This document shows positions 24,784-35,642 of a DNA stretch of 64,000 nt, piece by piece. Position 1 is the first letter of the stretch; the number at the start of each line of letters is the position of its first letter. Source of the DNA: Phaeotremella fagi. Lineage: Eukaryota > Basidiomycota > Tremellomycetes > Tremellales > Phaeotremellaceae. The notes under the pieces were generated by a model. The model was not told the origin of the DNA and searched no databases. It was given only the letters and a program-made list of their open reading frames with translations. Made by a program: the position numbers and the translations under genes. The stretch spans positions 1,798,001-1,862,000 of the forward strand of contig BCHU01000003.1 of NCBI GenBank assembly GCA_001599715.1, read 5' to 3'.

Positions 24784-25347
24784 TTAAACTTCTTGGGAAG
24801 CCTTTGCACCTTTCTTGGCGGTCTAATGGATGGGTTAGTAATTGGATGCAATATACAATGAAAGATATAGACATACCTTGGCTGGGAGAAGTTCGGAAAG
24901 AATGTTTGGTAAAACACCACCTTGGGAGATGACGACTTGACCGAGGAGACGGTTGAGTTCTTCATCGTTTCTAACGGCAAGTTGTAAATGACGGGGGACG
25001 ATACGGGACTTCTTGTTGTCACGGGCGGCGTTACCGGCAAGTTCGAGGATTTCAGCGGCGAGGTCTGGGTAGGATGTAAGTTACAGGTCTAATACACAGA
25101 AGATGATAACTTACACTCAAGGACAGCGGCGAGGTAGACTGGGGCACCTGAACCGACTCTGGATGCGTAGTTTCCACGTTTCAAAAGTCTGTGGATACGA
25201 CCGACTGGGACTGGTGGGAGGGTTAGTACAAGTGAATGAACGGTGATGGTGACGAGATGACATACATTGAAGTCCAGCTTTGGATGAACGGGTTGATGAC
25301 TTGGCATCGGAACCGGATTTACCACCTGATTTACCACCTGAAGACAT
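24784..25347 (-). CDS. H2A: Canonical histone H2A with C-terminal SQ motif
   Basis: Four exons. The tail ([17 protein letters not shown]) leads to [81 protein letters not shown] and [25 protein letters not shown]. The terminal SQEV is the DNA-damage phosphorylation motif (gamma-H2A) standard in fungi, so this gene serves as core H2A and H2A.X. Acidic-patch residues (Glu of LEYL, AAE and ILE, then DEE) are present. Introns fall within LQ-F, after LE(Y) and after PAK. It shares a divergent promoter with H2B. Confidence 0.97.
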
Positions 25348-26007: not shown

Positions 26008-26592
26008 ATGGTAAGTCATTACGTCTACCTTATCACCCCCTCTTTATCACTAACACCCACCTTCAGCCTCCCAAGTCAACCGCCTCCAAAGCCCCAGCTT
26101 CCCAAGCTTCCAAAGCCCCAGCCGCCGCTTCAAAAGCCCCAGCTAAGGCTGCCAAAACCTCTGCCGCTCCAAAAGACGGTGCCAAGAAGAGATCAAAGAA
26201 GAGAGTCGAATCTTACTCTTCATACATCTACAAGGTTCTTAAACAAGTTCACCCAGACACTGGTATCTCGTAAGTTATCATTACTATTGATCTCTGTTGT
26301 ATTGTTCTAATTTTCCTCTAGCAACAAGGCCATGGCCATCCTTAACTCCTTCGTCTCCGATATCTTCGAGAGAATCGCTTCAGAAGCTTCCAAACTCGCT
26401 TCATACAACCACAGATCAACCATCTCATCCCGTGAGATCCAAACCTCCGTCAGACTTATCCTTCCGTAAGTCGATTATCATCTCACTTCATGTTTAAACG
26501 ATTAACTAACACTCCACTGCAGAGGAGAACTTTCCAAACACGCCATCTCTGAAGGTACCAAGGCTGTTACCAAATTCTCTTCATCCAAGTAA
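26008..26592 (+). CDS. H2B: Canonical histone H2B
   Basis: The coding part of exon 1 is only the ATG (26008-26010), directly followed by GTAAGT. Exon 2 starts after CTTCAG near 26066 with [17 protein letters not shown], a Lys/Ala-rich tail, then [57 protein letters not shown] and [19 protein letters not shown], ending [21 protein letters not shown]. About 139 residues, the normal length for fungal H2B. The C-terminal helix with the conserved ubiquitin-acceptor Lys context (AVTKFSSSK) is present. Divergent partner of H2A. Confidence 0.97.
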
Positions 26593-28431: not shown

Positions 28432-29169
28432 TCAAACTAAATCCAATATCAGTCATCGAAAAAATAACCCAGAGATAGTACTCACCAGGTAGACTCTCTC
28501 CCTCAGCAGCCTTTCCTTTTCCTTTACCCTTAATCTTCTTGGATTTTGGAAGGGTACTGGAACCAGTACTCTTGGGAGTAGAAGTTTTTTTGGTCTTGAC
28601 GACTAGAAGTTCAGGATGGATATGAGGGGAAACTCCACCATTGGAAATGATGACGTTTCCGACGATACGTTGGAGTTCTTCGTCGTTTTGGATTGCGAGG
28701 ACGAGATGGCGAGGGACGATTCGTTGTTTTTTCACTTGATTTGGGAGATATCAGTTGAGTTTGGAGTAGTAAACTAATGTATAACTTACGGTCTCTCGCA
28801 CAGTTACCTGCGAGTTCGACGATTTCAGCGACGAGGTATTCAAGAACGGCAGCTATGGCTTGTATCAGTTTGATTTGTTTTTCGAGCTGTTATCAAATCA
28901 AACATACCTAAATAAATACCAGCTCCTTCACCGACTCGCTTAGCCAGTTTGGCTTTACGAAGGTATCTCGTAACACGAGAAACAGGGACTGAGTTATATG
29001 TTATCAGTCTAATGTGTTTGTGTTCAGTTAACAAGAGAAATGACTTACAAGTTAAACCGGCACGTTTGGTCTTACTTCGTTAACGTTCACGGTCTTGTTG
29101 GGAGGAACGAGATGAGGTCGTGTCGTTTGGTTTACGGGAGACGGTGGACGGGATTGATTTTCCTGGCAT
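28432..29169 (-). CDS. Divergent histone H2A-like protein A, lysine-rich C-terminal tail, in-frame stop in apparent exon 1
   Basis: Four coding blocks carry a full H2A fold: [79 protein letters not shown] and [16 protein letters not shown], then a tail with [13 protein letters not shown]. Acidic-patch Glu/Asp residues are all kept. The SQ motif is absent. The apparent start [14 protein letters not shown] (29169) is followed by a TAA at 29082-29080 (codon 30), in frame with the fold, with no later ATG in that exon. So either the gene is broken, or the real transcript starts elsewhere or splices differently. A donor after codon phase 2 at ATCCC/GTCCAC would restore frame but is a poor donor. 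The end at 28432 assumes an intron starting GTGAGTACTA. Introns match gene B. Confidence 0.7.
29080..29082 (-). other. In-frame TAA in the apparent first exon of H2A-like gene A
   Basis: Codon 30 from the ATG at 29169. Everything downstream ([10 protein letters not shown] and the histone fold) is open in the same frame. Confidence 0.85.
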
Positions 29170-29384
29170 TTTGATATAAAAAGACGGGGGTTGGGTTGAT
29201 CTCGGATCAAGAGTTTTGTGGGAATAACACAAAGAAAGTTTGGTGGATATCTAAAAACGAAAGGATATACAATAGAAGTAAGCTAAGGAATATAATAATT
29301 TAGAAAAATATAATGAACATGAAGAAAGAAGAAGAGAAGGAGGTGGAGTTGGGGTTTATATATGTTGATATGGGATACGTTACG

Positions 29385-29396
29385 GTCCAGTCAACC
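29385..29396. promoter_or_regulatory. Motif GTCCAGTCAACC, gene A copy
   Basis: Identical 12 bases occur at 30615-30626 before gene B. Confidence 0.5.
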
Positions 29397-29459
29397 ACGA
29401 TCAGAGATAACTAACTGTACACGTCATGACTTTGTGAGTATAAACATCAACATTAATAT

Positions 29460-29471
29460 AACGCACAGACC
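29460..29471. promoter_or_regulatory. Motif AACGCACAGACC, gene A copy
   Basis: Identical 12 bases occur at 30642-30653 before gene B. I did not see it before canonical H2A, H2B or H3. Confidence 0.5.
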
Positions 29472-29969
29472 GTTTAATCTAAAGGATGGAGAGGAGGGAT
29501 GGTGATGGTACCTTAAACCTTATGAGGAAACACCATCGAAGACTATACTTTACATACCTTCTGACGCTCCTTTTTGGGAATGGTACATCTACTTTGGTAT
29601 GGCTAGTAAGAGCTAGACACTTAATCCCAACGAAGCTGAACAGCCGCCATTGATATCCTACAGAGTGGATTCATATTGATTCCGAGTCGGACGATTGATC
29701 CAACACCTCTTCCGAAACCAAATGCCACATTGATCATACTTTTATGTTTCATAAATCGCATAAACGTTTTTTCTTGATAATTCGGTATGCAGGTACTATG
29801 GAAATTCTATGTGGAATGAAATAAACGATGATAAAATCTACAACACAGATATGTACATTGAACTCGAACTTAAAAATCATAAAATTAACAACGACAAATC
29901 TAACCGAAACCAAGTTTCAGTAATCGCATCCACAGATTAAAAAGTCCCACTTACCACCAACGCAATCAT

Positions 29970-30505
29970 TCATCGTCGTCCATGACAACATCCATAATAA
30001 AGTTTTATGTATTCTGGAGTAAGAAGTTCCCGATGGATATTCGGTAAAACTCCACCATGTGAGATGACAGTTTTATCACCGACCAAACGACTTATCTCTT
30101 CATCTCTGTAGATAGCTAAAGCTGGGGTAGAACTCGATTGCTTTTTCCTGTGGTTTTTCGTTCTTTCACCAGGCCTAGTTGATGATTTAGATAGCGTTAC
30201 TCACTGTGTTTACCCCAGTTTCCAGCTAATTCTACAATTTCACGGATTAGATATTCGAGAACGGCGGCTACAACCCCATCAGTTTTGGAGTGATTTCGCT
30301 GTCTTACCTAGATATACTCCTGCCCCTTCACCGATACGTTCAGCGTATCTACCTCTCTTCAATTTTCTATAGATACCAGCTACCGGAACTGTATTCCTTA
30401 ACTAAAGCGGTTCTGGGGGTCGGAAATGGACTTACAAATTAATCCTGATCTTTCGGTCGTATTCTTACGTTTACTGAGCTTGGATGGAGGTGTTTCTTGT
30501 GGCAT
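29970..30505 (-). CDS. Divergent short histone H2A-like protein B
   Basis: Four exons, all joins in frame, about 130 residues. Tail MPQETPPSKLSKRKNTTERS, then [98 protein letters not shown], and the end IKLYYGCCHGRR. The histone fold and acidic patch (Glu of LEYL, IRE and IVE, then DEE) are conserved. In loop 2 the canonical [13 protein letters not shown] has become KKQSSSTPALA, removing the DNA-contacting arginine and the PRH motif, and the C-terminal tail has no SQ site. Intron positions (after GLI, YL/A, and before RKK) match gene A, not canonical H2A. No stop codon interrupts it, so it looks like a functional, fast-evolving H2A variant. Not H2A.Z: it lacks the H2A.Z loop and docking sequence. 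Confidence 0.82.
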
Positions 30506-30614: not shown

Positions 30615-30653
30615 GTCCAGTCAACCGTCGAAATGAATACAAACGCACAGACC
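30615..30653. promoter_or_regulatory. Paired motifs GTCCAGTCAACC and AACGCACAGACC, gene B copy
   Basis: Same two 12-base motifs and same order as before gene A, spaced 27 bases start to start here against 75 there, 110-140 bases before the gene B start. Confidence 0.5.
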
Positions 30654-31579: not shown

Positions 31580-32109
<530 letters not shown>

Positions 32110-33788: not shown

Positions 33789-35642
33789 TCATAACCCACG
33801 ATTATGGTTATCCACCAGACCACCCTTCTCTTCGTCGTTTTTGATTTTCATTAATTTAGCGAAATACAACTAAAAGCCAATTTTCTTCAGTCAAGAATAA
33901 TTGAGCAGAATCATTTTTCCACTTACACCACAAGAATTACATAGAGTTCGAGGACCATCTGGACCTCTCCGCCATTCCGGGGTCTGTGAAGCATTACATC
34001 CAGAGCATCTCCGAGTTTCACCGTTAGATAACCCCCCTGAATTCGATTTATGTTTCTTGTTGAAATTCGATTCGAGGATGGTCGAGGTCGAAAGTGATCG
34101 ATTGACTTTATGCGGACTAGTCACTGTTGATCCCGTTGTCGATGTCGGATTTGAAGTTGAGGTTTTAACGAATAAAGAGTGGGTTTGCGTGTAATTCGAT
34201 CGATCTGTTTTGATCGCTATCAATTCTTCACGTCTGGTTCGGAGGTATTCCATCTCTTCTTCCGCTGTTGATGAGAGTTTTAGATTTGGGTTTGATGATG
34301 AAGATTTTCGTTTTAATTTCGAAGTCGACATCGTTAGCGATTTGACCATTTCTTGAGGATGAACTTCTGGTTTGAAACTATCATTCTCGATGACATCAGG
34401 CCAATTTGATTTCATCCCACTTTCATCACCCAATTTCGATTCCTTTCTCGAAGACGAGGTGAAACCACTGGATAGATGCGTATGGACCCTTGGCGCTAAA
34501 TTCGTCATGACCTGTTGGATAGATTCTGAAAGTCTCGTGAAATGCGTCATCAGATAGGGTGGGGGTTTCGGTGGATTGGGATTGGTCTCGGAAGTAGCTG
34601 ATTTGGATTAGGACTTGATTAGCAGGTTTGACTTACCGAACGGTTGGAGGAATTGACAGAGGTCACTTAAACTCGTTTTAAGCTATTTTTTTAATAAATC
34701 AGTAAAGACCACTGAAAGGGCTTTAGGAACACCTACCTGCTTCACTTCATCTTCCACATCGGGACTAAACAGTTTCGAACTGGTCTGACCGTCAACCTCA
34801 TCCCCATAATCCAATCTAACATCCCCAACCCCCTTCCCAGTAATCTCTTTACTAAAATCCCTAGCCCAGATGCCAGGCTGATCAACCCCATCCCCATTCA
34901 AAACGATTTCATTCGACGAAGAAGATTTCCTCAATCCACTTAAACTTGGTAAAGGGATAGAATTGTTTTCAACCGATTTCGCAGCGATGGTTTGACGTAT
35001 TTCACGTCTTCGACCTCCTGGATCAGTGAACCAGTCCCATGAATGAACTTCTTTTTTGGAATTTGGACTTTCACTGGATTCCTTCTCGTCTTTTGATGTT
35101 GTGTTGGATAAGGAAACGGATACGGAAACGGATTCGAGGTTTGTCGATACTGGATTGTTGATATCTGTTTTCGGTAATTGGTGAGGTAGAGATATAGATG
35201 TTGGTAGTGATAACGATCCTGTAGTTGTTGAGATTGGAACTGGAACTGGGATTGGAGGTGGAGCTGGAACCGCTCCAGGTAAAGTAGATATCAAAGGTAA
35301 AGGACGTATAGTCACTACAGGTGAAAAAGCAGTTTCGATATGTGCAGGTAAAGGCGGAACCACGATCGGTGGTGGTGGTGGATCATGGAGGTTAGGTGTA
35401 TAAGATGGATAATATTCTATCTCACTCGTCAGATAATTGAAATTCTGAATTTGATAGGTTGGATCATAAAGAAAATCGGAATTTTGATTTGGATGATAGG
35501 TTTGATAATTTATCGAATTATTTTGGTCGTTGAGATGATTCTGGTTGGATCCTATTATTCTTTTTGAATTTGGAGTGGGATCTAGGATATTTGGATTGGT
35601 GGGTAGGTATTGATTTTGGATGTATTGGTATTGATTATACAT
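33789..35642 (-). CDS. GATA-type zinc finger transcription factor
   Basis: Four exons (35642 to about 34737, about 34682-34637, about 34526-33930, about 33871-33789). The N-terminus is Asn/Tyr/Pro-rich, followed by HSWDWFTDPGGRRREIRQT, then LKTSLSDLCQFLQPFESIQQ. The finger [35 protein letters not shown] sits at the very C-terminus, with CX2CX18CX2C spacing as in NsdD, Gat201-like and white collar 2 factors. The last finger residues depend on an intron at about 33872-33929 whose join restores GLYFAKLMK exactly. No PAS domain is visible, so it is not a plain WC-2. Likely nuclear regulator of development or nutrient response; targets unknown. Confidence 0.88.

Follow-up and report, generated by a model that had tools for sequence, protein, structure and literature searches.

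The usual description of fungi gives them few types of H2A. In mammals, the short variants H2A.B, H2A.L and H2A.P are fast-evolving, lineage-restricted and repeatedly lost. Closer to the subject of this study, protein searches returned a second, fast-evolving H2A in six species of Kwoniella (Kwoniella sp. B9012, K. mangroviensis, K. europaea, K. botswanensis, K. bestiolae and K. shivajii; records P0082, P0122, P0124, P0125, P0126 and P0128), the other five being 58–79% identical to P0082. A literature search, with most subscription papers lying outside its reach, turned up no report of this Kwoniella gene or of the pair of genes described here.

That pair, A and B, lies in a 64,000-nucleotide stretch of the genome of Phaeotremella fagi (hereafter the window). 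The initial annotation had placed two H2A-fold genes between the canonical H2A/H2B pair and H3; both are indeed found in this interval, on the minus strand. The features of the locus are as follows.

24784..25347, minus strand: canonical H2A, with three introns and the C-terminal end SQEV (exon joining and translation)
26008..26592, plus strand: canonical H2B, divergent from H2A (by eye; tblastn)
28432..29169, minus strand: gene A, a diverged H2A paralogue of five exons (exon joining and translation; profile matches)
29048-28989, 28907-28853, 28789-28735 and 28485-28437, minus strand: introns of A (exon joining)
29169 and 28432, minus strand: ends of A, start ATG and stop codon TGA (translation)
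29080..29082, minus strand: in-frame TAA of A, the 30th codon, in exon 1 and ahead of the histone fold, which opens with AGL..FPV (translation)
29970..30505, minus strand: gene B, a diverged H2A paralogue (exon joining and translation; profile matches)
30505 and 29970, minus strand: ends of B, start ATG and stop codon TGA (translation)
30435-30389 and 30307-30268, minus strand: introns 1 and 2 of B (exon joining)
30204-30122 (donor GTGAGT) or 30200-30148 (donor GTAACG), minus strand: intron 3 of B, ends uncertain (splice paths)
30122..30147, minus strand: stretch of B aligned to the KKQRIVPRH codons of A, covering the L2 loop and the start of alpha 3, and either translated as KKQSSSTPA or removed with the intron (DNA alignment; reading frames)
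31580..32109, plus strand: canonical H3 (sequence reading; tblastn)

Searches of the genome (22.6 Mb) with the fungus's own H2A and with the core of A gave nine matches each, confined to the H2A locus, A, B and an H2A.Z gene (C11:531.4-531.8 kb); nowhere else in those 22.6 Mb was there a match to either core, that of A or that of B, exceeding those of its own H2A and H2A.Z. Within the window, tblastn with five histones as queries detected no further histone relic. Other histone genes lie elsewhere: extra H3 genes at C10:603.8-604.5 kb (L009) and C7:302.0-302.6 kb (L011), the former reading SSAIGALQEA at a stretch where the H3 of the window has different letters; C2 carries a CENP-A-like gene (L010). 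Adjoining the histone cluster, on the minus strand at 33891-34607, is an open reading frame with a putative GATA-type zinc finger, recognised by eye.

A and B are likely to be lineage-restricted tandem H2A paralogues, derived from one diverged ancestor and long under selection, that are both now without nucleosomal function. They had been annotated as two working variants, a reading that is not supported in view of a premature stop in A and a damaged core in B: with a stop ahead of the working part of one gene and a damaged core in the other, dying genes are likelier than two working special-purpose histones. A decaying pair of paralogues is a known kind of thing, and A is a well-preserved member of this one.

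Read from the ATG at 29169, the frame of A meets the TAA at 29082-29080, which the initial annotation, correct in describing A as H2A-like, overlooked. The same frame continues as RSKTKRAGL and then, past intron 1, as FPV; translation reveals no in-frame methionine downstream of the TAA. A stop at this point in the N-terminal tail means that AUG-started translation ends ahead of the fold: no AUG-open frame runs through the whole of it, and the coding frame carries a disabling lesion of the kind that marks a pseudogene. The part after the stop, on the other hand, scores above the cut-offs for both the histone fold (PF00125, 45.1 bits; cut-off 26.4) and the H2A C-terminal domain (PF16211, 40.3 bits; cut-off 20), as a nucleosomal H2A should. 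The core is open and is 66% identical to that of the fungus's own H2A over 97 codons; the tail (40 residues, ending in GESLPV) is lysine-rich and open, with a tidy extra intron; and the stop is the one lesion in about 172 codons.

Core residues were scored against H2A proteins gathered in three homology searches, of which 336 of 349 were used (six from Kwoniella, five long and two poorly mapped were dropped), a set picked for its resemblance to A, B and P0082 rather than at random. Thirty-two core sites that are at least 97% invariant in this set were defined as near-invariant. The 336 proteins depart from them at 0–5 sites (median 0; 266 at none) and the fungus's own H2A at none, while A keeps 31 of the 32, the sole departure being A69C, and is basic at each of five DNA-facing positions that were checked. 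Such preservation, together with the six acidic-patch residues, the single lesion and the start context AAAATGCC, would also suit a living H2A variant next to a dead B, with a stop that arose in assembly or belongs to an allele peculiar to the strain sequenced. However, the assembly reads TAA and no close relative of A appears among the 120 protein matches listed, and we regard this explanation as unlikely.

A could also be alive with its stop bypassed, through readthrough, initiation at a non-AUG codon or splicing of exon 1 that is specific to a stage, and so yield a variant histone in some stage only. Enumeration (single introns of 35–260 nt, any ATG below 29420, paths with one extra intron only) gave 18 in-frame splice paths that avoid the stop and continue into the core, two of which keep the AGL region, and two colinear promoter words are retained upstream of both A and B. 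Yet none of the 18 paths uses a GTNNGT donor, whereas the donor of intron 1 is GTAAGT; the GTNNGT form is found in all seven introns of the fungus's own H2A and H2A.Z and in all four of A. A bypass is accordingly a rather improbable account. More doubtful again is the fuller version, in which A would be the sole survivor of a line of H2A variants specific to this lineage, long a true nucleosomal histone and now made only when splicing or readthrough gets past the stop in exon 1; were it true, that stop would be a switch, built into the gene, for a special nucleosome.

In B the damage lies in the core. Spliced by eye at the sites aligned to intron 3 of A, the gene reads RKSNRVLPQL and then stops. 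Enumeration gave 17 open splice paths through intron 3, none of which keeps the PRH or RIVPRH region and all of which lose R29, A60, R77 and R81; depending on the path, B departs at 6–15 of the 32 near-invariant sites. The four paths with the GTGAGT donor lose at least 11 residues around L2. The longest path with an intron of usual size (30200-30148, 53 nt, donor GTAACG) yields a product of 131 residues, in which KKQSSSTPA stands in place of KKQRIVPRH in A. DNA alignment shows small indels in the L2 region by which the frame is disturbed and then restored. Frame-disturbing indels and lost near-invariant residues are thus both present, as expected of a pseudogene, although open frames remain. 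In the two splice paths scanned, the C-terminal domain still passes (PF16211, 32 bits; cut-off 20), but the fold scores 20.2 or 21.2 bits for PF00125, below the cut-off of 26.4 expected of a nucleosomal H2A. As with A, the annotation of B as H2A-like stands, but the loss of RIVPRH from every open path had been missed.

Divergence was compared over 81 codons, one unpaired codon of B being left out. Identity is 64% for A and B, 64% for A and H2A and 68% for B and H2A; the corresponding NG86 dS values are 1.44, 1.35 and 2.12 (undefined in one of ten comparisons), and dN/dS is 0.21, 0.26 and 0.15, respectively, with dS saturated. Recent copying of the neighbouring H2A is not supported at 64–68% identity and a dS of 1.35–2.12. 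The preservation of A at 31 of 32 sites and an average dN/dS of 0.15–0.26 indicate that both genes were long constrained, that failure came late and that B is further along. Decay had been named in the initial annotation as the alternative to its own reading, and decay is what the core of B displays and what A probably displays; yet the three dN/dS values between A, B and H2A lie far below 1, which shows past rather than present constraint. It is scarcely credible that both genes still work as variants. In favour are the old divergence at this average dN/dS and an open frame through B of nearly full length; against are the stop of A and the loss of R29, A60, R77 and R81 from B whichever open path is taken.

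Intron positions were mapped in human H2A residue numbering. The introns of A fall at 25 (phase 1), 52 (phase 1) and 73 (phase 1), plus one in the tail; those of B at 25 (phase 1) and 52 (phase 1), with 73 (phase 1) if the GTGAGT donor is used. The fungus's own H2A has introns at 25 (phase 1), at 57 (phase 1) and after PAK, and its H2A.Z at 25 (phase 0), 32, 68 and 114. The map upholds what had been claimed from the sequence: three positions are shared by A and B, two of them absent from canonical H2A (and also from H2A.Z), and the canonical introns after LE(Y) and after PAK are missing from both genes. Two extra introns are therefore common to A and B only, while the codon-25 intron ties both to canonical H2A.

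A and B are also sisters in a 30-row tree (support 97/91). Both are long rows, though, and attraction between them may account for the pairing. Trees that place A alone or B alone with the fungus's own H2A are not rejected (p-AU 0.30 and 0.22); separate origins are therefore compatible with the data, and common descent is argued better by the introns that the two genes share. The earlier proposal of a single variant ancestor is in this way supported by introns, by sisterhood and, more weakly, by two colinear promoter words, and is qualified by the separating trees: A and B probably share one duplicated, diverged H2A ancestor. Beyond the pair, the deep forks are weak. One 30-row tree has a fork at 80/84, absent from the other, that unites A and B with H2As of agarics and of a red yeast in a set of 14 rows; a 29-row tree without B puts A beside agaric H2As at 41/31. 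Forcing A and B together with the Kwoniella proteins (p-AU 0.43 and 0.48 in two runs), with the fungus's own H2A and Cutaneotrichosporon (0.26 and 0.34) or with H2A.Z (0.13 and 0.28) is not rejected either. No forced grouping was rejected in either run. Protein searches, which required shared words and covered annotated genes only, gave 214 matches for A, 322 for B and 1957 for P0082; among the 120 listed for each, identities reach at most 69% with A and at most 57% with B.

Upstream of the two genes, comparison of promoters revealed two shared words.

29385..29396, minus strand: GGTTGACTGGAC upstream of A
29460..29471, minus strand: GGTCTGTGCGTT upstream of A
30615..30626, minus strand: GGTTGACTGGAC upstream of B
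30642..30653, minus strand: GGTCTGTGCGTT upstream of B

Their order and strand are the same before A and B, and they are not common to the upstream stretches of H2A, H2B, H3 and H2A.Z that were compared. In 20,000 pairs of 600-base pieces drawn at random from the loci studied, which are rich in one of the words, two colinear 12-base words occurred in 24 pairs and one or more in 962; of 28 promoter pairs (the B–H3 pair, being the same DNA, left out), 10 others share single words of at least 12 bases, and blastn gives E 0.16 for each of the two words. Genome-wide, GGTTGACTGGAC has 45 copies against 7 for the reversed word, about six times as many, and GGTCTGTGCGTT has 9 against 1; within the window, counting up to two mismatches, neither is in clear excess. 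The 43 other copies of GGTTGACTGGAC lie in 42 regions and the other copies of GGTCTGTGCGTT in 7 more. A sense frame accompanies GGTTGACTGGAC in 41 of the 42 regions, and 20 of these 41 were scanned. The seven of the 20 with a Pfam match (RPA C-terminal domain, Sec15, Hsp70, RF-1, DEAD helicase, a kinase below cut-off, and Gtr1) have no common functional theme. T follows GGTTGACTGGAC directly in 36 of the 45 copies. GGTTGACTGGAC may serve this fungus as a promoter element. The shared words mildly favour former promoters and common descent of A and B, not a stage; a stage-specific role, as once proposed for these genes, finds no support in a word with 45 copies whose named neighbours lack a theme.

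If A and B are indeed decaying paralogues, their history may have run as follows. An H2A gene would have been duplicated, and one copy would have diverged and come to differ in four introns; that copy would then have been duplicated again in tandem to give A and B, a sister relation that the trees support. Purifying selection, visible as past constraint, would have held the ancestor and A as nucleosomal H2A. Later, frame-disturbing changes at intron 3/exon 4 would have scrambled the L2 loop and the start of alpha 3 in B, with loss of the DNA-facing arginines 29 and 77, and A would have acquired the in-frame stop in its N-terminal tail. Neither gene would be expected to supply normal nucleosomal H2A today. 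We infer this order of events, the former role of the genes and, from the lesions, their loss of function.

How does the pair compare with known histones? Like the canonical H2A of this fungus and of Agaricomycetes, A has a histone fold and an H2A C-terminal domain, a phase 1 intron at codon 25 and the acidic patch, the six positions of which (E56, E61, E64, D90, E91 and E92) are retained in A and, on the splice path examined, in B, as the initial annotation had it. From canonical H2A both differ, also as annotated, by EGAG in L1 where the fungus's own H2A has SGAP and by the lack of a C-terminal SQ motif (B ends in CCHGRR), and further by two introns extra and two missing, by the in-frame stop of A and by the core damage of B. 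Lacking SQ, neither is H2A.X; and with only two histone families matched at E 0.001 and no macro domain, neither is macroH2A. At sites that separate the fungus's own H2A from its H2A.Z, A matches H2A at 17, H2A.Z at 4 (L73, I87, H110 and H112) and neither at 18 (39 in all), and B matches H2A at 15, H2A.Z at 4 and neither at 16 (35 in all). The claim that they have no H2A.Z features was therefore nearly right, save for four matching residues in each. With no extra residue in L1, with NDEE or RDEE and not GDEE, and with introns at different positions, H2A.Z is rejected for both on L1 length and diagnostic residues.

The Kwoniella second H2A is, like A and B, a fast-evolving paralogue, and some features recur: the MPGKS start of A is found in four of the six Kwoniella proteins and its RYL in alpha 1 in all six. 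It differs in being 41–49% identical to A in alignment, in lacking EGAG in all six and in carrying an EESGP tail in all six; P0124 (K. europaea) is without the acidic-patch residues D90 and E92. The six group together at 83/82 in one tree and not in the other, and in neither do they form a clade with A and B. Agarics and a red yeast contain further long-branch H2As (P0062, P0050, P0102, P0115, P0104, P0111 and P0025), with EYLVAE in alpha 2; of five tested, four have no near-invariant departures and P0104 has three. Six of these diverged proteins (P0062, P0050, P0102, P0115, P0104 and P0025) resemble A and B as long-branch paralogues, but the four of them scored singly depart at 0, 0, 0 and (P0104) 3 near-invariant sites, no starred grouping joins them to A and B, and a forced grouping of four of them with A and B gives p-AU 0.32. 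Diverged H2A paralogues may be common in basidiomycetes, and the extra H2As of Kwoniella are a pattern worth following. With extra diverged H2As here, in six Kwoniella species and in several agarics, fast-evolving and at times without core residues, it becomes a testable pattern that basidiomycetes gain and lose H2A variants, and the A/B locus would exemplify a late stage of such turnover. Compared with the mammalian short variants, A differs in retaining the acidic patch and docking region, and germline expression has no support here; by analogy, what A and B would have in common with them is that they are fast-evolving, lineage-restricted H2A paralogues subject to repeated loss.
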